64,000 nt of DNA from Lineus longissimus (Eukaryota; Nemertea; Pilidiophora; Heteronemertea; Lineidae), in the NCBI RefSeq assembly GCF_910592395.1, contig NC_088322.1, positions 13,263,431 through 13,327,430 on the forward strand. The letters are read 5' to 3'. Positions 25,601 to 59,200 of the stretch are shown here, piece after piece; position 1 is the stretch's first letter; each line of letters opens with the position of its first letter. Below the pieces are notes generated by a model that searched no databases, had not been told where the DNA came from, and was given only the letters and a program-made list of their open reading frames with translations. Both the position numbers and the translations under genes were made by a program.

Positions 25601-28600
25601 GGCGGAGTTGGCAACACCTTTGTTCTTCTTGGAGGTTTGGCTGTTGGCATTCAGGTTGGCCGAAGTCCCAGGATTGGGGGCAACTTTTGACATGACCCCA
25701 AGTCATTGGATATTGCAGTGGCATAAGTCAAAACATGAATTTTGGGCATGGGTGGTGTCATTGTTCGTAAATCGTTGTGCATTTGGGATAAAATAATGCG
25801 GGAGACTTAGGCAGTATCAACTGTGTGCGGCATGACTGCCCATCCTCTTTATAACATAGGATTCGAAAGTAGACCAGAATCTGGAAGTCTAACTCACAAT
25901 TTGTCTTATAAAATATTTCATGGTTTTTCAGATGACCAGATTCGCCTTGGTAACAAACTCCTGGTCTACATCAGCTGCTGCCTGGCAGGCCGGGCGTACC
26001 CCCTTGGAGACATTCCTGCACCCATTGTAAACAAAGTGAAAGCAGACGTCTTCAAATCTGTCACATGTTTGCATACAAAAGAGGCGAATACTGACGAGCC
26101 GGTCTACCCGCACTTGAGAACACTTCTCCAGTTCGACACGCGAGAGTTTCTGAACGTCCTCGCTTTGGTACGTGTAATCCAGCAATCAATCTAAACCCTG
26201 TACCCCATTTGTGGCCCATTGACCCCTCAGTAGATGGATTATATAAGCCAGTCAGAAGAAAACCTATAAATGTATGTGTTGTTAAAGAGGCAAAGGAGTG
26301 TTCACTTCTTGCTGTTTATTGTCCTGTCATGGTTCATCCTTTTCAGGCATTCGAAGAAGCAGAATTCAACACTGACGAAGGCATCCAGAAACGTCAAAGA
26401 GTTGTCGATATTTTATTACAAGTCATGGTGGAGAGTATTGGATTTTCTGTGAGTAGGTTTTACTGCAGGCATGTAGAAAGCAAAAGACTCCATGCATGTG
26501 AGAAACGCAGTGAGAAACACGAGTGGTGTAAAGAAAAAGCCTGGCTCAAGATTGAACTTGAATTAAAACTTGGCCGTACTCATCTTCTTAAAAAGCCATA
26601 TCATCATACTGCCCCTGTTATTGGTCTGATTTGATATCTCCATTTCAGCCGACCCAAGTAGGGATCCTGTTCACCTTCCTAGCCCGTCAGATGGCCCGCC
26701 ATGAGAATACCATTCTTGTCAACAGAGTTCTCTTTGAGCAGGTAAGAGCCTGATTTTCCATTCATTTGATATTTTTCCCTTGACTCGTTCGATCCCAGTC
26801 TTCATAAGACAACATCCGCAACCCTCATTTTTACAATTTATATTAAAAAGTACAGTTGAGTCTCTTAACAAAATTTGACTCCTTGAAACCGCATCGAGGG
26901 AAAAGGATTTAAACTAAAAATGTGTCTTCCGAACAGTATTTCTACTATGTGTTCTCTCACAAGTCTCGTTTCATGATTTTCTTCTAGGTTCTTGAGTTCC
27001 TCTCAAGCCCGGGGGACGAGTCACGTCATGAAGAGAGACAACAGGCTCTACTTGAACTATTGAATGCCGGCGGCTTTGAGCAGTTTGATGAGACTCGTCT
27101 GCTCACCCTGGCAGAGAATGCAAAATTGTAAGTCACACTTTCTCCAGCAATCAGTGAAGTGACTTATCAGTTGGAACTATATTTGGCCACAAGTGAGAGT
27201 CAAAGTGTTTTCCAAGTGTTTTTAAGGAACGGTGGCGGCCTTTAAAATGCAAGTGCAGGGGCGGAAAAACCAAACAACTCATTTTGCTACTGAAATGGTT
27301 AATTTCTATTGTGTCTAGTAACAAGTTAGATATTTATAACAAGTGAAAAAGAAATCAAAAAATATTTTACTCTATACAGTTTACATGTTTCACCATTGTA
27401 TTTCTAGCTACCGTGTATGTGAGCTCCTCTATGAAAAAAGAAGAGAATTTGACAAGATTCTGTCATGCTATTGGAGGGATCCTTCTAGAAAGGTAATCAG
27501 TGCATTTTGTTCTACATTTAAACCTCATTAAAGAAATTTATATATACCTTCAGCCCGAAGCTGCCAAAAATGTGGTTTCTTCGATCAGCCATAGCTCTCA
27601 CACTTCGCATGTCACATTTGCAGTTAACCCTTCAAGGACTGATTTCGCACTGCTGCGAGGAACCGATTTCCTTCGTGACAGCCTGATCTCGCATCTGTGC
27701 GAGCAATAGAGTACGCGTTAGAACTTCGTTCCGGCTGCAGCAAATGGCCTAGTCCTTGTTTTAGAAACACACGTTTGGGATTCCCAAGATTCTACGCTGT
27801 ACATTTTTTATTCAGTGCAACTTTGGCGGACCGGTGTGATCATCAAAATACCTTGAGTCCTTAATAGGTTAACTGACAAGTGGAAGGAATGACAGGTGAT
27901 AACAAAATAGGCTGTCACCCATAGTGTCTGTCTGAACAACTACAAAGTAATCACCACTATTATTTATGCATATTAGCGAAATCGCATGAGAGTAAAGTAC
28001 AAGTAATGTCCATATTTATAAAGCGCTACTCAGTTTGACTGTTCAAACGCTGCCTTAGAATTAGTTGAAAGTAGTTTTTGTCTTCCCCTCCTTTTTTTTC
28101 CAATGTCAATCAATACTGATGAATCGACCATAAAATAACCACAGCAATACCACAGATGACCAGATAATGCCACTTCCACCTGCTCTCATTTTCTTGATAT
28201 CTGTGTTCCACTTCTTCTTGGTGTTGACGTTCTTGGCTTCTGCGTTCCTCTTCTTTGAGCTGAATTTCTTGGCTTCTGCATTCCTCTTCTTCTTGGTGTT
28301 GAAGTCCTTGACTTCTGCGTTCCTCTTCTTGGGATTGAAGTTCTTGACTTCTGCGTTCCTCTTCTTGGGGTTGAAGTTCTTGGCTTTTGCGTTCCTCATC
28401 TTCTCGGCGTTGAAGTTCTTGGCTTCTGCGTTCCTCATCTTCTTGTAGATGAAGTTCTTGGCTTCTGTGTTCCTCTTCTTCTTGGGGCTGAAGTTCTTGA
28501 CTTCTGCGTTCCTTTTCTTGGGGGTGAAGTTCTTGGCTTCTGCGTTCCTCATCTTCCCGGCTTTGAAATTCTTGGCTTCTGTGTTCCTCTTTTTTGGGTT

Positions 28601-31600
28601 GAAGTTCTTGACTTCTGCGTTCCTCTTCTTCTCGGTGTTGAAGTCCTTGACTTCTGCGTTCCTCTTCTTGGGGTTGAAGTTCTTGGCTTCTGCGTTCCTC
28701 ATCTTCTCGGCGTTGAAGTTCTTGGCTTCTGTGTTCCTCTTCTTGGCTTTGAAGTTCTTGGCTTCTGCGTTCCTCATCTTCTTGGCGTTGAAGTTCTTGA
28801 ATTCTGCGTTCCTCATCTTCTTGGTATTGAAGTTCTTGGCTTCTGCGTTCCTCATCTTCTTGGTATTGAAGTTCTTGGCTTCTGCGTTCCTCATCTTCTT
28901 GGTATTGAAGTTCTTGGCTTCTGCGTTCCTCACATTCTTGGTATTGAAGTTCTTGGCTTCTGTGTTCCTCATCCTCTTGGCATTGAAGTTCTTGGCTTCC
29001 GCGCTCTACATCTTCTTGGTATTGAAGTTCTTGGCTACTGCATTCTTCATCTTCTTGGTAATGAAGTTCTTGGCATCTGCATTCCTCATCTTCCTCGCCT
29101 TGAAGTTCTTGGCATCTGCGTTCCTCATCTTCTTGGCTTCTGCGTTCCTCATCTTCTTGGCGTTGAAGTTCTTGTCTTCTGCGTTCCTCACCTTCTTGTA
29201 GTTGAAGTTCTGGGCTTTTGCGTTCCCCTTCTTCTTGGTATTGAAGTTCTTGGCTTCTGCGTTCCTCATCTTCTTGACGTTGAAGTTCTTGTCTTCTGTG
29301 TTCCACACCTTCTTGGCGTTGAAGTTCTTCTCTTCTGCGTTCCTCATCTTCTTGGCCTTGAAGTTCTTGGCTTCTGTGTTCCTCATCTTCTCGGCGTTGA
29401 AGTTCTTGAATTCTGCGTTCCTCATCTTCTTGGTATTGAAGTTTTTGGATTCTGCGTTCCTCATCTTCTTGGCGTTGAAGTTCTTGGCTTCTGCGTTCTT
29501 CATCTTCTTGGTATTGAAGTTCTTGGCTTCTGCTTTCCACATGTTCTTGGAGTTGAAGTTCTTGGCTTCTGTGTTCCTCATCTTCTTGGCATTGAAGTTC
29601 TTGGCTTCTGCATTCTTCATCTTCTTGTAGTTGAAGTTGTGAGCTTTTGCGTTCCCCTTCTTCTTGGTATTGAAGTTCTTGGCTTCTGCTTTCCTCATCT
29701 TCTTGGCGTTGAAGTTCTTGGCTTCTGCATTCCTCAGCTTCCTGGTATTGAAGTTCTTGGCTTCTGGGTGTCTCTTCTTCTTGGAGTTGAAGTTCTTGGC
29801 TCCTGCGTTCCTCAGCTTCTTGGTATTGAAGTTCTTGGCTTCTGCGTTCCTCTTCTTCTCGGAGTTGAAGTTCTTGGCTTCTGCATTCCTCATCGTCTTC
29901 ACGTTGAAGTTCCTGGCTTCTGCGTTGATCATCATCTTGGCATTGGAGTTCTTGGCTTCTGCATTCCTCAGCTTCTTGGTATTGAAGTTCTTGGCTTCTG
30001 CGTTCCTCATCTTCTTGGAGTTGAAGTTCTTGGCTTCTGTGTTTCTCATCTTCTTGGTGATGAAGTTCTTGGCTTCTGCATTCCTCATCTTCTTGACGTT
30101 GAAGTTCTTGACTTCTGCGTTCCTCATCTTCTCGGCATTGAAGTTCTTGGCCCCCGCATTCCTCTTCTTCTTGGAGTTGAAGTTCTTGGCTTCTGCGTTC
30201 CTCATCTTCTTGGAGTTGAAGTTCTTGGCTTCTGCATTCCTCATCTTCTTGACGTTGAAGTTCTTGACTTCTGCATTCCTCATCTTCAATGTATTGAAGT
30301 TCTTGGCCCCCGCATTCCTCTTCTTCTTGGAGTTGAAGTTCTTGGCTTCTGCGTTCCTCATCTTTTTGGTATTGAAGTTCTTGGCTTCTGCGTTCTTCAT
30401 CTTCTTGGTATTGAAGTTCTTGGCTTCTGCATTCCTCATCTTCTTGGTATTGAAGTTCTTGGCTTCTGCGTTCCTCATCTCCTTGGAGTTGAAGTTCTTG
30501 GCTTCTGTGTTTTTCATCTTCTTGGTGATGAAGTTCTTGGCTTCTGCATTCCTCATCTTCTTGACGTTGAAGTTCTTGACTTCTGCATTCCTCATTTTCA
30601 ATGTCTTGAAGTTCTTGGCCCCTGCATTCCTCTTTTTCTTGGCGTTGAAGTTCTTGTCTTCTGCGTTCCTCATCTTCTTGATGTTGAAGTTCTTGGCTTC
30701 TGCGTTCCTCATCTTCTTGACGTTGAAGTTCTTGGCTTCTGCGTTCCTCATCTTCTTGACGTTGAAGTTCTTGGCTTCTGCGTTCCTCATCTTCTTGGCG
30801 TTGAAGTTCTTGGCATCTGCGTTCCTCATCTTCTTGGCGTTGAAGTTCTTGGCATCTGCGTTCCTCATCTTCTTGGTGTTGAAGTTCTTCTCTTCTGCGT
30901 TCCTCATCTTCTTGGCGTTGAAGTTCTTGGCTTCTGCGTTCCTCAGCTTCTTGGAGTTGAAGTTCTTGTCTTCTGCATTCCTCAGCTTCTTGACGTTGAA
31001 GTTCTTGACTTCTGCATTCCTCATCTTCAATGTATTGAAGTTCTTGGCCCCCGCATTCCTCTTCTTCTTGGAGTTGAAGTTCTTGGCTTCTGCGTTCCTC
31101 ATGTTCTTGGTATTGAAGTTCTTGGCTTCTGCGTTCCTCATCTTCTTGGTAATGAAGTTCCTGGCTTCTGCATTCCTCATCTTCTTGGCCATGAATTTCT
31201 TGGCTTCTGCATTCCTCATCTTCTTGGCGTTGAAGTTCTTGGCTTCTGCGTTCCTCATCTTCTAGGTTTTGAAGTTCTTGGCTTCTGCGTTCCTCATCTT
31301 CTTGATATTGAAGTTCTTGGCTTCTGAGTTCCTCATCTTCTGGGTATTGAAGTTCTTGGCTTCTGCATTCCTCATCTTCTCGGCTTTGAAGTATTTGGCT
31401 TCTGCGTTCCTCATCTTCTAGGTTTTGAAGTTCTTGGCTTCTGCGCTCCTCAGCTTCTTGGTATTGAAGTTCTTGGCTTCTGCATTCCTCATCTTCTCGG
31501 CTTTGAAGTATTTGGCTTCTGCGTTCCTCATCTTCTAGGTTTTGAAGTTCTTGGCTTCTGCGTTCCTCAGCTTCTTGGTATTGAAGTTCTTGGCTTCTGC

Positions 31601-34600
31601 ATTCCTCATCTTCTTGGAGTTGAAGTTCTTGGCTTCTGTGTTCCTCATCTTCTAGGTTTTGAAGTTCTTGGCTTCTGCGTTCCTCATCTTCAAGGTTTTG
31701 AAGTTCTTGGCTTCTGCATTCCTCATCTTCTTGGCGTTGAAGTCCTTGGCTTCTGTGTTCCTCATCTTCTTGACGTTGAAGTTCTTGGATTCTGCCTTCC
31801 TCATCTTCTTGGCGTTGAAGTTCTTGTCTTCTGCGTTCCTCATCTTCTTGATGTTGAAGTTCTTGGCTTCTGCGTTCCTCATCTTCTTGGCGTTGAAGTT
31901 CTTGGCATCTGCGTTCCTCATCTTCTTGACGTTGAAGTTCTTGGCTGCTGCGTTTCTCATCTTCTTGGCGTTGAAGTTCTTGGCATCTGCGTTCCTCATC
32001 TTCTTGGCGTTGAAGTTCTTGGCATCTGCGTTCCTCATGTTCTTGGCGTTGAAGTTCTTGTCTTCTGCGTTCCTCATCTTCTTGGCGTTGAAGTTCTTGT
32101 CTTCTGCGTTCCTCATCTTCTTGGTGTTGAAGTTCTTGGCTTCTGCGTTCCTCATCTTCTTGCCATTGAAGTTCTTGTCTTCTGCGTTCCTCATCTTCTT
32201 GGCGTTGAAGTTCTTGGCATCTGCGTTCCTCATCTTCTTGACGTTGAAGTTCTTGTCTTCTGCGTTCCTCATCTTCTTGGCGTTGAAGTTCTTGGCTTCT
32301 GCGTTCCTCATCTTCTTGGCGTTGAAGTTCTTGTCTTCTGCGTTCCTCAGCTTCTTGGAGTTGAAGTTCTTGTCTTCTGCGTTCCTCAGCTTCTTGGAGT
32401 TGAAGTTCTTGGCTTCTGCGTTCCTCATCTTCTAGGTTTTGAAGTTCTTGGCTTCTGCGTTCCTCATCTTCGTGGTATTGAAGTTCTTGGCTTCTACAGT
32501 CCTCATCTTCTATGTTTTGAAGTTCTTGGGTTCTGCATTCCTCATCTTCTTGACATTGAAGTTCTTTGGTTCTGCGTTCCTCATCTTCTTGGCATTGAAG
32601 TTCTTGGCTTCTGCATTCCCCATCTTCTTGGGGTTGTAGTTCTTCGCTTCTGCATTCTTCATCTTCTTGGAGTTGAAGTTCTTGGCTTCTGCGTTCCTTA
32701 TTTTCTTGGTATTGAAGTTCTTGGCTTTTGCGTTCCTCATCTTCTTGGTTTTGAAGTTCTTTTCTTCTGCGTTCCTCATCTTCTTGGCTTCTGCGTTCCT
32801 CATCTTCTTGGTGTTGAAGTTCTTGGCTTCTGCATTCTTCATCTTCTTGGAGTCGAAGTTCTTGGCTTCTGCGTTCCTCATCTTCTCGGTTTTGAAGTTC
32901 TTGGCTTCTGCATTCCTCATATTCTGGGCATTGAAGTTCTTGGCTTCTGTATTCCCCATCTTCTTGGGCTTGAAGTTCTTGGCTTCTGCATTCTTCATCT
33001 TCTTGGAGTTGAAGTTCTTGGATTCTGCATTCCTCGTCTTCTTGGCATTGAAGTTCTTGTCTTCTGCGATCCTCATCTTCTTGGCATTGAAGTTCTTGGC
33101 TTCTGCGTTCCTCATCTTCTTGGTCTTGAAGTTCTTGGCTGCTGCGTTCCTCATCTTCTTGGCGTTGAAGTTCTTGGCTTCTGCATTCCTCTTTTTTCTG
33201 GCGTTGAAGTTTTTGGCTTCTGCTTTCCTCTTCTTCTTGGCGTTGACGTCCTTGGTAACTGTGTTCCTCTTCTACTTGGAGTTGACCTTCTTCAAATCTG
33301 TGTTCCTCTGTTTCCTGTTGTTGACATTCACTGCTTCTGATTTCCTCTTCCTCTTGATGTCGAAGCGCTTGGCTTCTGTGTTCCTCTTCTACTTGGCATT
33401 GAAGTTCTTGGCTTCTGCATTCCTCTTCTTCTTGGCATTGAAGTTGTTGGCATCTGAGTTCCTCTTCTGCTTGACGTTGAAGTTCATGGCATCTGAGTTC
33501 CTCTTCTTTTTGATGTTGAAGTTCTTGGCACCTGAGTTTCTCTTCTTCTGCACGTTGAAGTTCGTGGCATCTGAGTTCCTCTTTTTCTTGACGTTGAAGT
33601 TCTTTGCATCTGAGTTCCCCTTCTTTTTGACGTTGAAGTTCTTTGCATCTGAGTTTCTCTTCATCTTGACGTTGAAGTTCTTGGCATCTGAGTGCCTCTA
33701 ATTCTTGACGTTGAAGTTCTTTGCAACTGAGTTCCTCTTCTTCTTGACGTTGATGTTCTTGGCGTTGACGTTCTTGGCGTCTGAGTTTCTCTTCTTCTTC
33801 TTGACGTTGACGTCTGTGTTCCTCTTCTTCTTTGCGTTGACGTTCTTTACGTCTATGTTCCTCTTCTTTTTGGCGTCGATGTTTTTGAAGTCTGTGTTCT
33901 TCTTCTTCTTGGCGTTGACGTTCTTGGCGTCTGTGTTCCTCTTCTTCTTGACGTTGATGTTCTTGGCATCTGCGTTCGTCTTCTTCTTCTTGACGTTGAC
34001 GTCTGTGTTCCTCTTCTTCTTTGCGTTGATGTTCTTTACGTCTATGTTTCTCTTCTTCTTGACGTCGATGTTTTTGAAGTCTGTGTTCTTCTTCTTCTTG
34101 GCGTTGACGTTCTTGACGTCTGTGTTCTTCTTCTTGGCGTTGACGTTCTTGGCGTTGGCGTTTCTCTTCTTCTTCTTGACGTTGATGTCTGCAGTCCTCT
34201 TCCTCTTGACGTCTTCGTTCCTTTCCTTTTTTACGTTGACGTCTGCGTTTCTTTTTTTTAGATTGATTATTCTTCTCCTCCTCATCTGAATCTGATGCAT
34301 CAAACTCATCCTCATCCTCTTCAGGGAAGTCTTGCTCATCAGACGTGCTACAAGGTTTTTCAGCTACTCGTAAGCGCCTCTGAAAGTAGGAAGAAAAGAG
34401 GGCTTATTCTAGTTAACATTTCCAAAAATCTATATTTGCTGTTGCAGTTTTTTGCAGTCAGGGTTCCTGCAATCTTAAAAATGGCTTATTTAGAAGTCCT
34501 AATTTTCAATGTGCCACGTAGAGCTTTTAAAAAAGGGGAAATTGTGAAACAGTACAATATCTGGGATAGTCCGTTTATGTACAAACATACCTGCATATGT

Positions 34601-37600
34601 GGGTAGACATACTGGTCACAATTCAAGCACTGTTGGTGTGCGTTAGCCCAGCTTTTGATACTCGTCCATATGTTGCCACAGTTTTTACAGTAAAATGTTC
34701 CAAAGCACTGCCTGTTTCCTTGGTAAGGCGTCCAGTAAATCCGTGGTTGATAGATCCACCCTCCGCAGCTGCAAAGTTGTTTTGAGTTTGGCAAAATGTT
34801 GTTTCCATCCCATGTTATCCCACACCCTTGTCTTCGACATGTAAATATCCCCTTGAAAGGTCCACTGTTGACAGCGGCTTGCTGGTGCCTCCTGCCCCGC
34901 TGTAGAAAATAAAAAATATATTGTGTAGACAGATGTGTACCTTTACAAAACAAATAAATCCAGAACGATTTGAATCCTTCCTGAATGACAATAATTTGAT
35001 GGTGCATATCATAATGTCTTCACCAACACTTGAAGCATTGCATGCTCAAGTGATCTTCTTATGTGGAAACAAAAAAGAAAGAGGATTGCATTTACACAAC
35101 ACAAAACCATATCTGTTACAATTCCCAATGATATGGATGGTTGTGAAAAACAGCTGAATTGATTACATCAATTTAGATTAAAACTTAGCGAACCGTGTAT
35201 TTAACCTGATGTGACCACTCCCTGACAGGCATCCCAATTAGTGGCACAGTTCAAAGCCCTATACTATTCTACTAAAGAACACTATTTCTGACTTTCATTT
35301 TCCCCTCCAAAGTTTATGTTCTGGTAAAACCACGAATTTAAAATACAGTGATTGCAATCATAATGTGTAATCTCACGTACCTGTGAGTTGGTCATTCTGT
35401 GCCCGGACATTTCAGTTGTGCTCTCAAAATGCTGTTGCTGTATTAATAGCAAAACGAAACAGTCTCTCTGAAGAATTGTCTTCTCCCAAAATGACAAGAG
35501 TATAGTGATGTAAAATTGTGGTAATGCCTGATGTGCTTCCCATTTTGCCTTGTTTTTTAATATCTCTTTATGGAATCCATGCATGAATGAATTTATACAA
35601 AACATGTGATTCGATGAATCTTCCCTTGAAAGCTTTACTGGGTCATACAACTACGGCTGGATTTACCTTTCTCATAATGTTGATTGGTGGTATATAGAAG
35701 TGACGGGGGGGGGGTTGTCAATTGTGTCATTTCAGCCGATGACTTTTTTGGCACACGGGCGAAATGACATCTGGGCATAGGCAGACAAGACTGTGGGCAA
35801 AAATTGTTGTGGGCCAAACAACCTGGGCCGCAATCCTCATTGACCAAATAGTCATGGGCCAAAATGACTTTTTAACAAATTTTCGCCATCCAGTCACTGT
35901 TTACCTCATTAGTGTATACTGTAGGCCCCTGTCTTTTTTGTTTGGGTTTTTTTGTTTGATTTTTGAAACTACCAATGGGAATGTAGCCTTGTGGTGAAAG
36001 GGACAACTCGTTGTGGGATTGAGGTGGACTGGAGAATAGTTTGCCTACTCACCACCATGCGCTGCCACGTGCAGCAACTCTAATCATGATTTTTGCTGGT
36101 GTTGTGTGGCAATTTTGGAGGTTACATTCCCTTCTAGTGAAGTATTTAATGCTGTTTTATAGTGATTCTTCACTGATCTTGTTTGAAAAAGTCATAGTCA
36201 TGCTGGGAGTGATTTTCTCTTTAAAAAAAAACAAAATTCTCAATGCTCAAGTTTTCCCTTTAAGGTGTCAGAATATGCTGGGTAACTTAAAGTAAAGTTA
36301 GGAGTATTTGACGTTCTTCAATCAAAAAAGACCCCGACCAATATCTTTCATTTTTGCTCTTCTGTGTTTGCAGTATCAAGCCTTTGCGTATATCGAATCA
36401 ATCATCGTGAATCCTCTCTACACTGAGGAAGAGAAAGACAATGTACGCAAGGAAGCTCTCTTGCATTTGGAGGAGCTAATTCTGATTGACAGCAAGAAGA
36501 CGGCCCAGTTGGTTCTGATTGGCTTCAGCCGAGATTTGGTGGACATTGTGAAGAAACTGGAGAATAATACTCAAGTGACGTATGAATTCCTGAAGGGAGT
36601 ATTCGAGTACAGGTATGTCATCATATTATTTCAAATATAATGAAGAAATGTGTAGACTCTCTATGGCCTGTTTATTAAATAAAGCATCAGCGAAGATAAT
36701 TTTAGTAATGTACCAAGTTTAAAAATGTTTAAAAAACGACTCGGATGTAAACTGTGGAAAGATCATACTGAGCGATGACCTGTTACCAGTAAAAGCCCTA
36801 GTGATAGACCAGAGTATCATTTTAACACCTTCTGCGCCGAACCACGTAGATCTACGTGGCCCAAATCCCCTCCCCTTTGAGCTGGTTATCGGAGTCTCAT
36901 GGACTTCATGAAGGAACTACGCCATCGCCATCTTCAGGGCAAGGTAGACACTGAAAAGACCGTTCAGTTCCTGCCTTGCCCTAAAGATGGCGATGGTGTA
37001 GTTCAGAACTTTGACTTCGTGAAAGAACTACGCCATCGCCATCTTCAGGGCAATGTAGGAACTGAATAGACCCAGTTTGTACCTTGCCCTGAAGATGGCG
37101 ATGGCGTAGTTCTTTCATGAAGTCCATGAGACTCCGATAACCAGCTCAAAGGGGAGGGGGGATTTGGGCCACTATGGCTGGCGGGAGTGGACAAATATCT
37201 GAATTAAGGGTCGGGATAAATCAGATTTATACCACGACTATATTCATAATAGTAGACAGCCAATCAGAACCCCGCATTTCATGAATTATGGTGACCATTA
37301 AATCTGAATTATACCACGACATAAATGAATCAACCCACGACTATAATCGTTTTAGACCCACGACTATATTCGTAATAGCAGACAGCCAATCAGAGAGCCG
37401 AATTTATGGACGGAAGTGCGATTTATGGACGCCGGAAGTGCGATATATGGACGCCGGAAGTGCTATTTATGGACGCCGGATGTTAGAGATCTGATGTTTT
37501 GATTGGTTGATTTATGGTGCACCACAATTCTGATTTACTTCCGTCCACAATTCCTATTTATGCCGCGGCATAATTCACGAAATCCGAGGTTTTGATTGGT

Positions 37601-43879: not shown

Positions 43880-45672
43880 TAACTGTTTGACAGTCCTGGC
43901 TGCTCCACTGTGCTGACAAACATGATGAGAGATAGAGAGTAACAGCCAGGCCAAATCAGTCCTGGCTGCTCTGCCAAGTTGTCAACATGATGAGAGAGAT
44001 GAGACAGTCACAGCCTGGCCGAATCAGTCCCGGCTGCTCCACCGTGTTTGCAATATGATATGAGAGATGAGACGGTCACCGTCAGGTCGAATCAGCCCTT
44101 GCTGCACCACCGTGTTGACAGCATGGTGAGAGATATGAGACGGTCACAGCCAGGCCACATCAGTCTTCGCCACACTGCCAAGTTGTCAACATGGTGAGAG
44201 AGATGAGACAGTCACAGCCAGGCCAAATCAGTCTTGACTGCTCTGCCAAGTTGTCAATATGGTGAGAGAGATGACGCAGTCACAGCCACAACGAATCAGT
44301 CCTGGCTGCTCCATTGTGTTGACAACATGGTGAGAGAGATGAGACGGTCACAGCCAGGCCAAATCAGTCTTTGCTGCTCCACCGTGTTGGCAACATGATG
44401 AGAGAGATGAGACGGTCACAGCCAGGCCAAATCAGTCTTTGCTGCTCCACCGTGTTGGCAATATGATGAGAGAGATGAGACGGTCACAGCCAGGCCTAAT
44501 CAGTCCTGGCTGCTCCACCGTCTTTGCAACATGATATGAGAGATGAGACGGTCACAGCAAGGCCAAATCAGTCCTTGCTACTCCAACGTGTTGACAGCAT
44601 GGTGAGAGTCTAATGAGAGATGAGACGGTCGCAGCCAGGTCGAATCAGTCCCGGCCCCTCCACCGTGTTTGCAGCATGGTGAGAGAGATGAGACAGTCAC
44701 AGCCAAGCCGAATCAGTCCTAGGTGCTCCACCGTGTTTGCAACATGGTGAGAGAGATGAGACAGTCACAGCCAGGCCGAATCATTCCTGGCTGCTCCACC
44801 GTGTGGACAAGGTCAGACAGATGAGACGGTCACAGCCAGGCCAAGTCAGTCTTTGCTGCTCTGCCAAGTTGACAACATGGTGAGAGAGATGAGACATGTT
44901 GGCAATACGGTGGAGCAGCAAGGGCTGATTAGGCCTGGCCGTGTCTGTCTCATCTCTCTCACCATGTTGGCAACACGGTGGAGCATCCAGGACTGATTTG
45001 GCCTGGCTGTGATCGTTTCATCTCTCTCATTATGTTGTCCACGCGGTGGAGCAGCCAAGAATGATTCGGCCTGGCTGTGACTGTCTCATCTCTCTCACCA
45101 TGTTGGCAACGCGGTGGAGCAGCCAAGACTGATTCGGCCTGGCTGTGACTGTCTCATCTCACTTGTTGTCAACACGGTGGAGCAGCCAAGACTGATTCGG
45201 CATGGCTGTGATTGTCTCATCTCTCTCACCATGTTGGCAACACGGTGGAGCAGCCAGAACTGATTCGGCCTGGTTGTGACTGTCACATCTCTCTCACCAT
45301 GTGGTCAACACGGTGGAGCAGCCAGGACTGATTTGGCCTGGCTGTGACTGTCTCATCTCTCTCACCATGTTGGCAACACTGTGGAGCAGCCAGGTCTGAT
45401 TCGGCCTGGCTGTGACTGTCTCATCTCTCTCATCATGTTGGCAACGCGGTGGAGCAGCCAGGACTGATTCGGCCTGGCTGTGACTGTCTCATCTCTCTCA
45501 TCATGTTGTCGACACGGTGGAGCAGCCAGGACTGATTTGGCCTGGCTGTGACTGTCTCATCTCTCTCAGCATAGTGTCAACACGGTTGAGCAACCAGGAC
45601 TGATTCGGCCTGGCTGTGACCGTCTCATCCCTCTCACCATGTTTGCAACATGGTGTAGCAGCAAGGGCTGTT
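43880..45672. repeat. Inverted satellite: about 68-bp units in two opposite arrays
   Basis: From about 43880 to 44893 units run in one orientation (GCTGCTCCACCGTGTTG ... GAGAGAGATGAGAC ... CACAGCCAGGCC). From about 44894 to 45672 the same unit runs as its reverse complement (GTCTCATCTCTCTCACCATG, CGGTGGAGCAGCC). There are about 14 units, then about 11. The switch is abrupt, within GAGATGAGACATGTTGGCAA near 44894. Units differ by point changes, giving a large imperfect palindrome. No coding content. Confidence 0.92.
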
Positions 45673-50278: not shown

Positions 50279-53200
50279 CTAATGCCTGTGGACATGCCAG
50301 TCATTCTCCCCCTGTTGTAACAACTCGGAAACCACCTTCTCGAGATTTCCATTGTGTTTCTCGAGCAACTGCCGATTTACATCTCGGTTAGCGAAGCCCA
50401 TTTCGACGAGTTGGTCCAGGGGCGAGCTTTCCTTTGGTACTGGCTCGCTCTGCGGAGGAGTCCATGCGCTCTGGGGGGCAGTCCATGTGCTCTGCAGGGG
50501 TGTCCAGTCATTTTTTGGAGGATTCCATTCACTCTTTTGGGGTGTCCAATTGTCCTGTGGTGGTTTCCAATCAGATTTTGGTGGAACAAACTGAAAGACA
50601 GATGATCAGATGGTGTAACAAAGGAATTGGATTCATGATATTGAGTAAAACCGATCACCCAAATTGTAAATATACTCAACATGAAGTACTTGCACAGTCG
50701 CATAAAAAGGACAAGGGTATAAGAGTTACGCCTTTTACAAAACAATGATAAGAGCATCCTACCTTGTTATTTGCTTGAAGAGTCTGGAACACATCTTTTG
50801 CTGTATGATAAGCCTGAGTCGCTGCTACACTTGCCATCCCGATAGCTGTATGCATGAAGCCTGCTCCAGCATGGTTACGCCTGAAACGATAACAGATATC
50901 TAAGAATCAAAATCCATCAACTATGATAATCATCTTCTTTTGATAATTTGTCATGCCTGTTAGCGTTTGTCGCATGAATTACGGGTTTGCGCCAAATTTT
51001 GGTTATTGGCCTATGCGACTGCCAAAGGTCACATGAAACTGTTAGATTAGGCTTGACAGACTCCACTCAACTCACCCCTGGTCATCTCCTGATGTATCCG
51101 GACCCTCAGCACCCTCTTCACTTCTCTCCTGAGGTTCTTGATTCACCACAGGCACCTGTCCTTCAGCAACGTCAGACTCCTTAGCGACCATCTCGCCCGT
51201 CTCGTCATTCTCAACCCTTTCCGTTTTGACGTCATGTTCCGGGACGACCAGTTCGGGCCCAGCAGCTTCGTACAACTCATCATCAGACAAGTCAATCTGT
51301 GCTACCGCATCCACGATTGAACCTGTCTCACCATTTAACTCAATCCTTTTGACGCCCTCGGTGATGGTGCCAGTTTCGCCGTCTGCAACCTCATCATCTT
51401 CAGAAGCATCGCTGAATGATTGCTCCTCATTCTCTATCTTGACCTCTGGTTGGAGAGCAACAGCTGGGGTGAGTGGCTTCATAGGGATGGTGTTTGACGT
51501 CGTCAACATGTCATCCACAGACCTCTCAGAAGAACAATCTGAAACTAATCAAGGAAATTTCGCCTAAGAATCATTCTTCACTGAAGTTAGTTTTTGAGCT
51601 TATCAAATTTTTAAGTTGAAATCTAACTTTCAAAGTCAAATTTTTGATGATGATGATAGAACAAATTTGTGCTCACAACTCAGCACCTCTAAGACCCTGG
51701 ATCCTTATCATTAATCTGGGTCACTACCAACCTGTATTGCTGGCTGATCCATACGTGGCCCCTGGGCTTATTACAGAGCGCGTCAATGGGATAGACGTGT
51801 TGAAACATTCGGGTAGCGGTACGATGAAAAAATCATTCTCAGTAGCATCTGATTCGTCAGAGCAGGAACTGATCGATTCGATGTCAATCTCGCACTCTGG
51901 AAATAAAATGGAAATGAAGTTTATAAGTATTGTGTATTTTAGCTTCCTCTTCTTCTTCTTCACATCAAATGCTCTGGTGAGAGCTGGTTGTGTGAGCAAT
52001 GAGTGCCAAAAGTTAAAAGCCTAGTGACACCGTTGTCGAGTGAGGGATGGATCAATGACAAGCCTACTCCTATTTCACACAAGAGTCTTGGTTGTGCACT
52101 GACATAATGAGATCAGCATCTGCATATCAATGAGGGGTCTATTAGTTGGTTGCACGTCTTATCAAAACAAAATTGCATTCAAAGTCAAATTCCTTGCCCA
52201 AAGTCACAAACAGAGTCACTTTCAGGTGGTGATACTGCAAGCCACAATGATTGGTTTATGAGTCTCGACAACTTGACCAGAAGACCTCCAGTTTTTTTAC
52301 TTTCAAAATAGCACAAGACTGCAAGATAACAAAGGTTCAATAATTGACCTACCTCCCAGGCCTGGTTTCAATCCAAGTGCAGCCATTCTCTCCTGGACGA
52401 GAGCCGACATCAAATCTAGGTCATTCTCCCCAGCAGGAGACTCGGGAACCAACTCCAGGCTACTGGAGTTCGAAAGGCGACAAGCGGCTGCCAGGTCTAA
52501 CTCTGGTATTGGAGATTTGGGAGGGCTCATATCTGAAGATTAGGAAGTAGATCATTAGTAAGTATAGAACGAGAAGACGGCATAAGTGCAATCTTTGGAT
52601 CTGATTTAAAACTTACCCAATGGAGTATTATTCGGAGTAGCCGTCTGTGAAGCATGAGGTATCTTCTGTCCCTGCCCCTCACTGATCTCCAACATCTCAA
52701 AGGAGAGCAGCTCCTTACACGGAGACAGGACTTGCCTGTCTGTATTACAGACGGTCGTCTCACCACTTTCCACATTCCTCTCAATTTGATCTGCAGCCGC
52801 CGCTTCCGGTTGCTGTTCCTGAAAGTTGGAGACGAATAATGAAATGAAGTGCAGCTTGTCTTACGCATAGCTGATAATCATGGAGGCTCGATATACCCCA
52901 TGTTGCTTTGTCTAATGGCCTGTGTCTTCAATGGAGAGGCTGGGCTTTCTCTCTTCTCAGAAAAGTTAAAGTCTGATTCTCATATAATGCTTTTCCATCG
53001 GCAAGTCCTTGTGAGAGCATACCAGAAACTCTTCACTTGAAATACTTCGGTGCTGCCAGAAAATGCCTGGCAAAACTCTGGTAAAACAAAATCGAGCTGA
53101 ATTCAATCAAACCGGTCTACATTGGTACAACTACGTCTGCTACAGACTCAAAACACACCGACAAGAGACCATTTTAACTCACCTCTGTCTCGTCATTCTG

Positions 53201-56200
53201 ACCATCTGTCCTTACATCAGAATGATGCGTGTCCAGCCCCTTCCTGGCCTCCCCACTCTCCTTCTCTGTCTCCACCATCTCTGCCATCATGTCCGGGTGT
53301 TTACTAGTCAAATGGAGCCGGAAGAGATTGGTCGACACCAGGCTTGTCGGACAGAATGGGCACTGAACAGCAGCAGGAGCTTCAGCTTGTTCCTGAAGTT
53401 GGATGGGAGAAAAAGTTCAATGAAATCCAAGTTACTGGTGTTACTGTATTAAGCTCTATGTAGTAAATAACATTGGAACGAAGATGGCAATGGTTGGGCC
53501 ATGTGCTCCGAATGCCTGCAAACGCATTGCCAAGGAGAGCACTCACATGGACTCCACAGGGGAGACGGTATAGAGGCAGACCAAGAGAGACCTGGCGGCG
53601 TTCCATGGCAAAGGAACTTCAAGAGAAGGGCCTAATGTGGGAGGCAGCCAGAGAGCGAGCAGCCAACAGACTTGAGTGGAGGACCCTGGGGAACGCCCCA
53701 TGTGCCACCTAGGGCATGAAGGGTCCTAAGTAAGTAAGTAAGTAAGTGAATAACATTATTCTAATCAGAAGCTTCAGAGTCAGATGGTAGATCGGGACGA
53801 AATTGTTTAATGATTGATATTCAAATTTTAGGACGTTCCACGTTTTAACTTCAACTTGACTGATGAAGGCAACAGAGCTATCCCAGCCAAGACGTTCGTT
53901 ACATCACAAATAACGTTACATTGCTTTCAATTTTTGATTGATACTCACTGAAGCTGGCTGTATTCTGACACAAGCCTCAGAAGGCTGGTCATATATCTCC
54001 GACAGAACAGGATCCCCCATTAGTTCTCCGTGCTGCCTCAGCAAGTGTGAGACGAGAGGTTGGCTGTGCTTGTAGGCGACGGTGCCAGGGCAGAATGGAC
54101 ACTGCCAACTTTCAGAGCCATCATCTGGAAGAAGACACCCAATACTGTATAAACACATTCAAATTTTGAAAAAAGGTTTGAAGGACGTGACTTTCAGGGT
54201 CTATCTACAGGGACCACGTCCCATTTTGGATTCAATTGGGCCAGCTACTCTCATCCGGTATTTTCACCTGGTGATTCAGGTCATCCAGAGTCAGGTTTTT
54301 GTCATTGAACTGTATTTTTATCACTCACCTTCGGTGCATTTAACCTCTCTTCTACGAATGCCAGGTTCGGCCTCCGACGCCTGAAACAAGACATGATTTT
54401 CTGATGAAGACGGCACAGAATTGCATTATTACTGAGTAGAGCAAAAGCTTTGCTACGTTGAGCTGCACAGCACCTGGTCAAAATGCTAAACACACTCGTT
54501 GAAAAAAACAGATGATCAAACAACTGTACCTAAATTTTGAGCCAAGTCACTGACCAGGGCAATATTCAAGTTTCACCTCAGCTGATCAAGCAATAAGCTG
54601 CACTTGAAAAACTTACCGCCGATGCATTTGTGACGATTTCACAAAGTTCCGAAACTGTCTGGGAAACAGGCTCCAAAACACTTCTCTGCTGGACAACAAT
54701 GCTACACCAGACACGATGACCAAAGGAATAGCCCCTCTGTAGTCTCCAGTGGTTCTGGTACACACCAGGCTCCTCAGGGGCAACAAGTTCAACTAACAGG
54801 GTTCCCTCTTCTTGGGGCTGGAGATGGGGTACCGCATTTCGGGCGGCTGTTGGAGGTAGGTTCCCCCACAGGAAACACAACTGAAAGGCAAAGTGTAAAC
54901 AGTCAAGGTTCGCAACATCATGAGTTTTGTTACCAAATACTGACAGATAAACTTGTGTTGTGTTGTAAAGTTGAGCAAGTCATTTAACTTTGATGCCAAA
55001 TCCTTTGAAGGAGACGTAAAACGAAGAATCGTTCTCAACAGTGCTGATGCCAGGGCAAGCCAAAGATCAAAGCCTTAGTCAAACTGTCAATACCTTCGTG
55101 TCTCGATCCCATGCTGAATTGCCGGTATTCTTCATCAGCCATTTCTTGGTGAACTTGGTGCCTGGGGGCATCTGGGTGGCATCCGCGATTGTCTCATCTC
55201 GAATAAAGCGGGCATCGAGGCGACTGCAACGATACAAAGTGACATTGTACAGGAACGTGGGAACTTGTACTTGTAAACAAACTTTTCAAAATCAAGCCAT
55301 CAATTGAGGGAACATCTCAAGAATGCTTGATGCCATGCGAGATGAAATAATTTCATCTGTCTCCAACACGTCTAAATGATGAAAAAGACTCATGTCCAGC
55401 ATCACCATTTCATTTGGATAATGCAAGACCTAATGACAAAATTTGGAACGGGAATTGACTAACACCCTCCGATGGAAAAATGTCATCCCTCCAAGGGTCG
55501 AGCAATTTTGAGACGATCCCTTACTCCTTCAATCTGTACTTTGGTAGGTCCAGCCTCTCCTTCTTGTGAGGAACATCTCGCTGATGTTCGTGGCGACGTT
55601 TCAACTTTTCTTCTTTCTTCTTCAACTTCTCCTCTTGTTTCTCCTCACGGCGTCGGCAGCGTTCAGCGAGCCTGGCATCGCGCTCCTGCATCCTGTAAAT
55701 GACAAGGATGCAACATTATTGGTACAGAGTGAAAGGGATGTTGCAGAAAACATAATTCCTGGTTCGTCGCCTCTCCTACATCAAGACTTCAGCAGGACCA
55801 ATTTGCAGTTCAGCTCCCCAGGCCCACTGTGAATCTTACAACCCGAATCACATGACCTGAACCTAACCACACTGGACCACCAACCATACAATGTACAATG
55901 TCAATTATCACAAAAAAGCTCTTTCTCGACACTAACCTCTCTAATTTCTTCGCCTCCTTCATTTTATCCTCATCGTCTGCCTCCTCTGGGCTATAGAGTG
56001 ATTTCCTCAGCAGGGGCTGCATCTGGCCCTTCTTGCGCCCAGCTGTGACTGCGGGGCGCTTGATCTTGATAAACACGTGAGTTGGATCGTGGATCCCGTC
56101 GATAGACTCGCATTGCTCACAGAGATCATAATCATCACAGTTCCTGGAAGCAGATTCTAGAATGGAACATTACAATTTCCACGACAAGGCCTGGCAAAAT

Positions 56201-59200
56201 GCAACTTGATATTATGCTGGATATAAATACAGTACATACCAAAATCAGTAGAATTTTAAAGCAAACGCGTAGGAGCAAGAATATTCACAGTGACTTACCC
56301 GCACTTGTACCTGTTGCCCACAATGGTCTGATCACAACAGTCGCAGATGATGCCAGTGTGGCAGTAGATAGCTGCAAGAGGGAAAAATACAGGAGTTCTG
56401 TTAGGCAAACTGTAGTTAAAAGCTGTTGGATATCTTTCAAAGAAGTCATTTAAACCTCTCTTTTGAACCCCAAAGTTAAGGATGTCAAAATTGGCAAAAC
56501 CATTATCACACTGTTACTGGTGATTCCAGTAGAACTCCACCGATGTGATCTAAATAATCATCATCAACTTCGTGGAAACAAGACAATAAGTGTAACTGCT
56601 CTTCATTAAATGAATGTTTTATATCAAAAAGTACATGTAGCATGGGTCATGAACTTGAAACAATCTGATGGAGAAAAAAATGGTTTCACCCTACAGTCAT
56701 TTAGTGCCATAAAACACCAAATATTTGGGAATACTTTATCTTCACAGAATAACTTAGAATAACCAAACATTTTCACATCATGTCAAAGTTTAGCCTTGCA
56801 TTCATAATGAACTTCAAACCTACCTTGACCTTGTCCATCAGCACCTGGTCCTGGATCCGGTAAAACAGCTGGTGCCGGGCGACCTGATGTGCCCTGTACC
56901 GAGTGAATCACTGCGCCATCCAGGCCACCTAGGATCTGTCTAACTGTCCTACGAGCAACCCTATCAGCAATTTCACCTGAAACGTCTTTTTTGAACTGAA
57001 ACAGAAAATCGTATTATTTAATTTCAATTTTGAACAGTTAATCTAGTCTTTGGCTAGAGTGCACAAACGAGATTCTGTTGCCCTTACAAGGGTCTTTTTC
57101 AAGATCTCCAAATCACTAATGCAAGTATCAATTCGTGTCTTGTACCCCCCCCTCCTCAAGGGTATGACACCTTATCACCCTATAACGACATCTTAAGGCT
57201 CAAGCATCACCCTTTTTTCACCAATGCTACTTTTTCATTCGTCAAGACATCACCATCAACAATATATCAGTTATCACCGTCATATAAAGTAACCGAACTA
57301 ATTTTACTGGGTAAGGCTGTATGTTCGACAAGACATCGACACATTAGCATCCTTATTCTTTCCAGCTTCGCCAAATTTTCACTAAAGGACAAATAAATAC
57401 TACCCAAGCATCGGCAAAGATTAGTGGTGATAGCTTAACTACCCTTGGGGAGGGGGGGGGGGGGTACAAGAAACGAATTGATACTTGCATAAGCAGGCCA
57501 AACCTTTTTAAGCTTACCTTGTCCATATATTGCTGGAACCACATGGGTGGAGGTGGGGCTAGGATATCAGACATGTCAGACACTGGAGACTGCTCTCCGG
57601 ATTCCGAATCATACTGCGACGAGGGTAGGTGGCGCTGCATCCGGTTGCCACAGGTTCGGACAATCTTTCCTCTCATACAGCCAACATCTCGTGCCAGCCT
57701 GGAATAGTAACCCTTGACCCTGTGTCGCTTAGCAAGGCTGGCCTCTGTAGGGGAAGAGGGGGAACTGCCAGAGTCATCCGTGTGCATTGTTTCGCCAGTT
57801 TCCTCTGTCTCGTTTTGCGCAGCCGTAAAGCTGAAGAAATTTAGTATTAGAATTCATAATCAAAGTTTGGCAGAGGCGTACCAACCAACAAAGCAATAAC
57901 AAATGGATTATGCAATTTGAAATTCAATCATTTACAATTGGTGAACTAATTCAAGCACATCATTATTATTAGCAGAGATGTAGGGCGTTCTGTAGTGAGA
58001 AGATAAAGTGTGTTACACCAACATTAATAGTTCACGAAATTGTCAAAGAAATCATATAAATCTAGCATCAATCCAATAGAATTTCCCCAAAAGACATGAA
58101 AGAGAAAGTCAACAATTACTTTATGAGTAGTGGTCAAGGCCTTGAGTAGTAGTAGCACCGTACACCCCTTTACATGTACAATGCATTTCATGAGCCCAAT
58201 ATTTTCATGACTTTCACAAGAGGGGGCACAATTGCAATCTTGAGCGAATTGAAAATTAACCTTAATGGTTTTATCATTGAAAAATTGCAAACACGTAAGT
58301 CTGCAAAAAATAAAGGGGTTAAATATGAACAAAACCATGTTCTCACTTTATTGCGAGAGCAATATCTTTCATCTCCCCTTTCTGAGCTTCTCCTCCAGCA
58401 GTTGCATCCATCATTGCAGCTTCAGCAACAACTTCTGCATTCAGTTTCTGTCCATCTATCTGCTCATTTTCAGTAGGCTGGGGGTAGCTCTCAGTCACAC
58501 GAACACGGAGCGTATTTCCAGTCTTTTTGCCAAATTTCATGGCCTCTTCAAGTTCTTCTTGACTTCCGATCATAACGGCATCATTTTCTTCATCAAAGTA
58601 TTGAATTATCACTTCCTCACACTGGAACGCTAGCTTCAGCTTGAAAATCAAGATCAAGAAAGATAGGAGTAGAATAGAGTTAAATACCCGAAGGTGCTGG
58701 TTCCCAGGAAATCTTCAAGACTCACTCATTTCGATGGCAATTTCGATCCCGAGTGTGGGCCTATCAACAAACCCTACCATACCAACAACCAATGCTTCAT
58801 CTCCATCTTGGGCAGTAGCCCATGACAATTTGGAGCCTAAGTGGGCCAAGGGGATCGGGAGGATCCAGAAAATTGTGTCCGGCCGTCAATGTAATGTCAT
58901 TGTCACCACTTTGCTCCCTAATACCACACTTAAGAAGTTGGACCAGATATGACGACAGTACGTTTAGACGATGGGAGACAGTACGTTTAGACGATGGGAG
59001 ACGGATTGTTTAAACCGTACTGTCGCCACTTCCTGGTCAACTTCTCAAGTGTCGTACAGGGGCATTTTTATTGGACTTGAGACAACACGACAGACAATGA
59101 GAGACCAATCGTCACTGTGTCACTTATCATTGCAATGGTCAGAGGAAGCCGTTGGCGACAAGCGCCATGCAACAAACCAGTCGCAAACCGAAGTCTGAGT

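Follow-up and report, generated by a model that had tools for sequence, protein, structure and literature searches.

A minisatellite-expanded, putatively tail-anchored relative of ZCCHC24 nested in a VPS8 intron of Lineus longissimus

Several described protein systems share parts of the design of the gene reported here, which lies antisense within an intron of VPS8 in a stretch of 64,000 nucleotides (nt) of the nemertean Lineus longissimus genome (NC_088322.1, positions 13,263,431 to 13,327,430; this whole stretch is the window below). As described in the papers cited, ZCCHC24 binds UGUWHWWA in mRNAs (PMC11624195). Among the receptor-transporting proteins (RTPs), human RTP4 is a protein of 247 amino acids (PMC10470548), the zinc domain of which binds viral RNA (PMC8172065, PMC10470548). 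The tail-anchored golgins, namely giantin, golgin-84 and CASP, have a long helical rod and a C-terminal transmembrane (TM) segment, and project into the cytoplasm (PMC4707255). Single alpha-helix (SAH) domains, such as those of Myo10 and INCENP, play the role of leash, spring or spacer (PMC4183817, PMC5812594, PMC4571873). Among the open-licence papers searched, we found no described protein that combines a zinc head, a long rod and a tail anchor, in agreement with an initial annotation of the window, which knew of none with this layout.

The analyses below establish the layout, reading frame and family of this gene, hereafter the nested gene. Its predicted product carries a zinc head, a long charged helix and a C-terminal hydrophobic tail, as had been proposed at first, and the layout appears to be a minisatellite-expanded form of a tail-anchored ZCCHC24-like protein. 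We consider it probable that the nested gene is a member of a small ZCCHC24-related zinc-ribbon family, at least two members of which are tail-anchored, and that it functions as a long leash.

Gene model and reading frame of the nested gene

The features of the nested gene and of its surroundings, in window coordinates, are as follows:

35381..35410, minus strand: exon 1, 30 nt, 10 codons (MSGHRMTNSQ), with the phase-0 donor CAG/GTACGT
34591..34899, minus strand: exon 2, 309 nt, 103 codons, the predicted double zinc-ribbon head
34765..34839, minus strand: putative zinc ribbon 1, C31-x4-C36 ... C53-x-C55, placed by its Cys positions and its likeness to ribbon 2
34591..34710, minus strand: predicted zinc ribbon 2, PF17180, C81xxC84 ... 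C101xxC104, found again by the genome-side search
28110..34379, minus strand: exon 3, 6,270 nt, 2,089 codons and the stop, comprising an acidic start, the repeat rod and the tail anchor
28203..34208, minus strand: rod, residues 171-2172, 13-residue repeat QELQRQEDEERRS, with the charge pattern of a single alpha-helix
28122..28178, minus strand: predicted tail anchor, residues 2181-2199, with only HQY between it and the stop, placed by hydropathy and by ungapped alignment to the anchor of a paralogue (B, below)
27807..27812, minus strand: poly(A) signal AATAAA, with a GT-rich stretch ~40 nt downstream
27493..36373, plus strand: VPS8 intron containing the nested gene, placed by the ends of the flanking exons, with VPS8 Pfam domains farther out on both sides

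The three exons, all of them phase 0, join into one uninterrupted frame of 2,202 codons. Ranked with a generic splice matrix, the two donors and two acceptors fall in the top 0.2-0.5% of the 3,455 GT and 4,499 AG dinucleotides that the window has on its minus strand, which upholds the initial description of three phase-0 exons with strong splice sites. Exon 1 is the least certain: its donor ranks at 99.6% and is the best among three phase-0 first-exon candidates with a donor score of at least 4 (over 3.6 kb), no homologue of the exon was found, and two more in-frame ATGs lie 5′ of it, at 35584 and 35605. At the other end of the gene, 298 nt separate the start of the AATAAA from the first base of the stop codon.

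The host intron is 8.9 kb long and is bordered by exon ends at 27492 and 36374. Pfam domains of VPS8 score over the cut-off in three of eight plus-strand open reading frames (ORFs), the propeller and TPR exons lying to one side of the intron and the RING exon to the opposite side, so the placement of an antisense gene within a VPS8 intron also stands. The two exons immediately adjoining the intron have no Pfam matches; by their likeness to human VPS8, we take them to be part of that gene. A plus-strand frame of 1,022 amino acids (28259-31327) was set aside, being the complement of the array and carrying stops over it.

The rod is encoded by an array of 128 units of exactly 13 codons and 8 units of 12 codons. 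Exon 3 is less regular over its first ~600 nt; the single 6.27 kb open exon of 39-bp repeats described initially is thus confirmed as an open exon, with the repeat description slightly simplified. The frame of exon 3 holds one stop in 2,090 codons, the terminator, and its other five frames hold 11, 133, 15, 202 and 15. Over 28200-34174, the rod frame holds none and the other five hold 11, 193, 12, 10 and 120. Open stretches in four further tandem arrays tested in the window did not exceed 69 amino acids. Based on the observed mutation classes, 52.4 stop-making changes would be expected in the 128 regular units, or 20.9 with CpG treated apart, counts that are inflated because the units share ancestry; the single one observed lies in a codon that a second change keeps from being a stop. 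Distinct types of stop-making change were therefore counted to allow for shared descent, and one was seen against 5.05 +/- 1.13 expected, a result as low being reached in a fraction 0.0009 of 20,000 draws. Since the rod frame is free of stops, the other frames contain 10-193, and 20.9-52.4 stop-making changes are predicted, the array is coding and is not a satellite that is open by chance. The 39-bp unit occupies one genomic place in 391 Mb (one candidate region, with 69 overlapping matches all within exon 3), in a search that passes over simple repeats and very frequent words and hence does not strictly prove its rarity.

The zinc head and its relatives

In the head of the nested gene, hmmscan placed PF17180 (Zn_ribbon_3CxxC_2) over its cut-off (35.6 bits, E 9.6e-9, cut-off 27), whereas PF13695 (Zn_ribbon_3CxxC), the model for RTPs and ZAR1, remained below its own (15.4 bits vs. 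23). The cysteines of the head comprise two CxxC pairs, one C-x4-C, one C-x-C and one lone Cys, and not the three CxxC motifs of RTPs and ZAR1. The head had initially been described as a 3CxxC domain and compared to those of RTPs and ZAR1; the zinc head stands, while its assignment to the RTP/ZAR1 type is not supported, the closest relatives found being ZCCHC24-like.

By sequence, the head consists of two tandem zinc ribbons. Ribbon 1 aligns to ribbon 2 with a score of 47 in the nested gene (shuffled mean 23.8; 0.2% of 2,000 shuffles as high) and of 72 in paralogue B (shuffled mean 25.9), which indicates an internal duplication in both heads. ZCCHC24_C, which carries a third CxxC, has no match in the head and exon 3 of the nested gene, and the pattern LC.KC does not occur in the gene. 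Likewise, no CCHC zinc knuckle was matched in the predicted protein, although an upstream exon may have been missed. NCBIfam models gave nothing notable, a tblastn search with the head found no second copy in the rest of the window (next best E 1.1), and the best match of the head among solved structures (E 0.78) was not meaningful.

A genome search located PF17180 at five places, namely: one on C1, three on C7 within 14 kb, and the nested gene. The three C7 paralogues (A, B and C) are 46, 44 and 44% identical to the full head (E 2.5e-21, 3.9e-21 and 1.3e-16), and the C1 gene (C1:25.78 Mb) is 50% identical to it over 48 residues (E 5.2e-11). A MAFFT alignment extended into part of exon 3 gives identities of 37-41% between the relatives and the nested gene. 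Three of the eight genome matches to the head (E 0.445, 0.827 and 5.15, with internal stops) were dropped as chance.

The C1 gene encodes zf-CCHC_2, one PF17180 ribbon and ZCCHC24_C, and ends directly after the last of these; we take it to be the ZCCHC24 orthologue. At E 0.001, a genome search for ZCCHC24_C found it only in the C1 gene and in paralogue B (28.8 bits, cut-off 27), with paralogue A below the cut-off at 18.1 bits. The nested gene lacks the third CxxC that paralogue A, paralogue B and the C1 gene all carry. A phase-0 junction between the head exon and the next, YPxxQ/xxL, is common to the nested gene, A, B and the C1 gene, where the last three residues read RRL, ERL, RKL and RPL, respectively. 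In paralogue B (C7:16.940 Mb) the next exon encodes 142 amino acids, with ZCCHC24_C, a linker of ~90 residues and the hydrophobic tail FLKMVCVGLGLLIIWTVFG followed by SRSN, the mean Kyte-Doolittle (KD) hydropathy of which is 2.11. The next exon of paralogue A (C7:16.950 Mb) encodes 111 amino acids with the third CxxC and an Asp/Tyr/Gln-rich repeat. Among the three double-ribbon genes with a readable next exon (nested gene, A and B), an anchor is present in two (nested gene and B) and linker repeats in two (nested gene and A). The shared junction and the anchor of B therefore support the joining of exons 2 and 3, as well as the anchor itself, independently of the initial annotation. The plan of head, linker and anchor is common to the nested gene and paralogue B; the length of the linker sets the nested gene apart.

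Some further observations concern these relatives. The three clustered ZCCHC24-like double-ribbon paralogues span 14 kb on the minus strand at C7:16936656-16950357 (L015-L017); paralogue B has an apparent GC splice donor, and in paralogue C the cysteines of ribbon 1 are altered. The double ribbon of paralogue A gave a sub-threshold match to PF15135 (UPF0515; 22.4 bits vs. a cut-off of 29.8), as did the C1 gene (18.7 bits). PF15135 is the family of the antiviral protein SHFL (Shiftless), and these scores hint that the zinc ribbons of paralogue A and the C1 gene may be related to SHFL. The one place in the genome where PF13695 exceeds its cut-off (44.5 bits) is C12:16856025-16856192 (L029), an exon that looks RTP-like by eye; the genome thus seems to have an RTP-type gene at another locus. 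Phage records gave no match to the exon 1-2 region, a single 10-residue match in viral contigs (L001) was taken as chance, and none of the 33 stretches matched in a pattern search of genome contigs was confirmed.

The rod and the tail

The rod comprises 2,002 residues, 53% of them charged (net -351), including 10 Pro, 25 Gly and 66 Cys. At spacings of i+3 and i+4, it contains 872 pairs of opposite charge and 193 of like charge, compared to ~508 and 630 after shuffling. Its charge score is 0.339 (shuffled -0.061 +/- 0.016), where the Myo10 helix, as quoted in a passage of PMC5812594, has 0.565. The order of its stripe is 0.26-0.28 at periods of 3.5-3.75 (given here without a shuffled control), and the value of 0.57 at 3.25 reflects only the 13-residue unit; with no heptad stripe, a coiled coil was rejected. 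This excess of opposite-charge pairs and lack of a heptad stripe form the pattern of an SAH domain, and the long charged helix that had been proposed for exon 3 is thus upheld. AlphaFold2, run without an alignment on the last 229 of the 2,089 residues that exon 3 encodes, predicted helices at 2-90 and 93-228, separated by a two-residue break (mean predicted local distance difference test score, pLDDT, 87.8; predicted template modelling score 0.34). The rod would be mostly a monomeric single alpha-helix. An alpha-helix rises 0.15 nm per residue, which gives a contour of 300 nm if the rod is fully helical. If expressed as read, it would be, to our knowledge, far longer than other single-helix linkers.

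Selection on the amino acids of the rod is weak. In counts that ignore shared descent, changes toward Glu (28 seen, 11.0 expected) and Arg (26 and 15.0) are in excess, and those toward Val (7 and 14.5), Asp (6 and 14.3) and Phe (1 and 4.6) are in deficit. The exact sequence of the rod thus seems to be loosely constrained, with a bias to Glu and Arg. As a separate observation, the array (28203-34208) displays CpG decay of its Arg codons: among the 60 Cys counted over the 128 regular units, 46 stand at the two CGC codons, and C to T changes at CpG occupy 74 of 256 cells.

The tail of the nested gene, WKWHYLVICGIAVVILWSI, has a mean KD of 1.59. This is weak evidence when taken alone, because 4.5% of 1,347 background ORF tails in the window are at least as hydrophobic. 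The tail aligns without gaps to that of paralogue B, with a score that 1.2% of 2,000 shuffles reach. In the protein that starts at 35410 rather than at the upstream ATGs, residues 2181-2199 form the single hydrophobic segment, within ~30 residues of the C-terminus, and the best 19-residue mean elsewhere is 0.07. The C-terminal transmembrane segment of the initial annotation is thus retained as a predicted hydrophobic tail, and membrane insertion would be post-translational.

Competing readings and comparison with known systems

The long-leash function that we consider probable would work as follows. The linker of the nested gene is a coding 39-bp minisatellite of ~2,000 stop-free codons, and ZCCHC24_C is absent. 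The tail would insert post-translationally into the endoplasmic reticulum, the Golgi or another membrane facing the cytosol. The rod, as a mostly monomeric single alpha-helix, would have an end-to-end distance well under 300 nm, as such helices bend. The head would remain cytosolic and, by analogy with ZCCHC24 and RTP4, may bind RNA. The protein could then act as a long flexible leash that gathers RNA (or protein) throughout a large space surrounding the membrane. The stop-free frame is most simply explained by selection that keeps the distal anchor joined to the head.

Several points weigh against this account. The nested gene is known here from genomic sequence alone, and the counts of expected stops are inflated, as noted above. 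In the protein database, searched over three length ranges (3, 0 and 3 word-sharing candidates, none of them scored), no homologue was found. The AlphaFold2 model of the head, made without an alignment, was too poor to be used (pLDDT 42). Within the rod, 18% of the 49-residue windows score 0.2 or less, the prolines number 10, and helix-breaking changes have not been purged, with 9 changes to Pro where 8.7 are expected and 28 to Gly where 26.8 are expected. The anchor is not proven to be a family trait, since the paralogue A exon that was read has no hydrophobic tail and the 10 kb below the head exon of paralogue C yielded no last exon. ZCCHC24 is described, in a passage of PMC11624195, as a CCHC-type RNA-binding protein, and its RNA-binding residues may lie in the CCHC knuckle that the nested gene lacks. 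The lack of this knuckle, together with the failure to find a last exon for paralogue C, slightly weakens the family and RNA steps. Finally, the antiviral action of RTP4 is independent of its C-terminal TM segment, according to passages of PMC8172065 and PMC10470548; in contrast to that dispensable segment, the stop-free rod suggests that the distal tail of the nested gene matters.

A possible, though clearly less probable, alternative is that the nested gene is a real tail-anchored gene with a tolerated coding minisatellite, in which expansion of the linker is neutral or slightly harmful, the rod is probably length-polymorphic, and it merely connects head and anchor. Replacement classes that include Pro, Gly, Leu, His, Lys and Ser near their mutation-class expectation fit this explanation, as does the concentration of Cys at the two CGC codons, which is what CpG decay would produce. 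The linker also looks expansion-prone, being ~90 residues long in paralogue B and holding a different, Asp/Tyr/Gln-rich repeat in paralogue A. However, the charge pattern is far from shuffled (although it could derive from the founder unit), changes toward Glu and Arg exceed expectation while those toward Val, Asp and Phe fall short of it, and 6.27 kb contain no stop.

It is very unlikely that the gene is untranscribed or decayed, with exon 2 a family relic and the array open by chance. The absence of protein-database relatives outside this genome, the purely genomic record, the missing third CxxC and the irregular spacing of ribbon 1 would accord with decay, but the stop statistics, the kept cysteines of ribbon 2, the strong splice sites, the shared exon junction and the likeness of the anchor to that of paralogue B all argue against it. 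Least credible of all, and disfavoured, is an invertebrate RTP with a long linker: zinc domain, variable linker and C-terminal TM segment do follow in the order of RTP4 (passages of PMC12431671 and PMC10470548), and RTP-like proteins such as Ciona Ci8long are known in invertebrates (a passage of PMC3639994), but PF13695 stays under its cut-off here and exceeds it elsewhere, on C12, and the relatives B and the C1 gene have ZCCHC24_C.

Beyond the probable family membership and leash function, we raise more tentatively, as a rather doubtful proposal, that the nested gene represents a new class of membrane leash, in which an RNA-binding-type zinc head, a monomeric tandem-repeat helix of ~2,000 residues (300 nm contour) and a tail anchor arose by minisatellite growth in one exon of a ZCCHC24-like gene. 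If this were true, length could shift stepwise by unequal crossing-over, and reach would be a directly evolvable trait.

Two other features of the window were observed. At 43891-45670, two adjoining 68-bp tandem arrays, with consensus units that look by eye like mutual reverse complements, would make up a large inverted array pair. On the minus strand, 50279-58714 holds what looks like the SQSTM1/p62 gene, with the PB1 exon identified by Pfam and the ZZ-like and UBA-like exons by eye.

With regard to known systems, the tail-anchored golgins resemble the nested gene in having a long helical rod that a C-terminal TM segment attaches to a membrane, the membrane link being predicted in the nested gene; their rods are coiled coils, unlike the present one, which has no heptad stripe. 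We know of no tail-anchored golgin with a zinc head. SAH domains have the same charge pattern, but the rod of the nested gene is set apart by its ~2,000 residues in one tandem repeat, rich in Gln and acidic (net -351). RTP4 and other RTPs have, in the passages on which the comparison is based, a 3CxxC-type zinc domain, a variable linker, a C-terminal TM segment and association of the head with RNA; their zinc domain belongs to another Pfam family (PF13695), and those passages describe no rod. If the nested gene is expressed as read, it would have the part order of RTP4, an antiviral protein from another zinc family.

The closest relatives are ZCCHC24 and paralogue B. ZCCHC24, as represented by the C1 gene, has the same PF17180 ribbon and exon junction, but consists of a knuckle, one ribbon and ZCCHC24_C, whereas the nested gene has two ribbons, the rod and the hydrophobic tail, with neither knuckle nor ZCCHC24_C. 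Expressed as read, the nested gene would provide an exceptionally long single-helix linker in a family that has the mRNA-binding ZCCHC24 as its named member. Paralogue B has the double-ribbon head, the junction and a similar putative tail anchor, but retains ZCCHC24_C and has a linker of ~90 residues without a rod. It is an unexpanded control within the same genome, which would allow a clean test of how a coding minisatellite makes a long mechanical element out of a short linker; the pair would likewise test whether linker length is selected.

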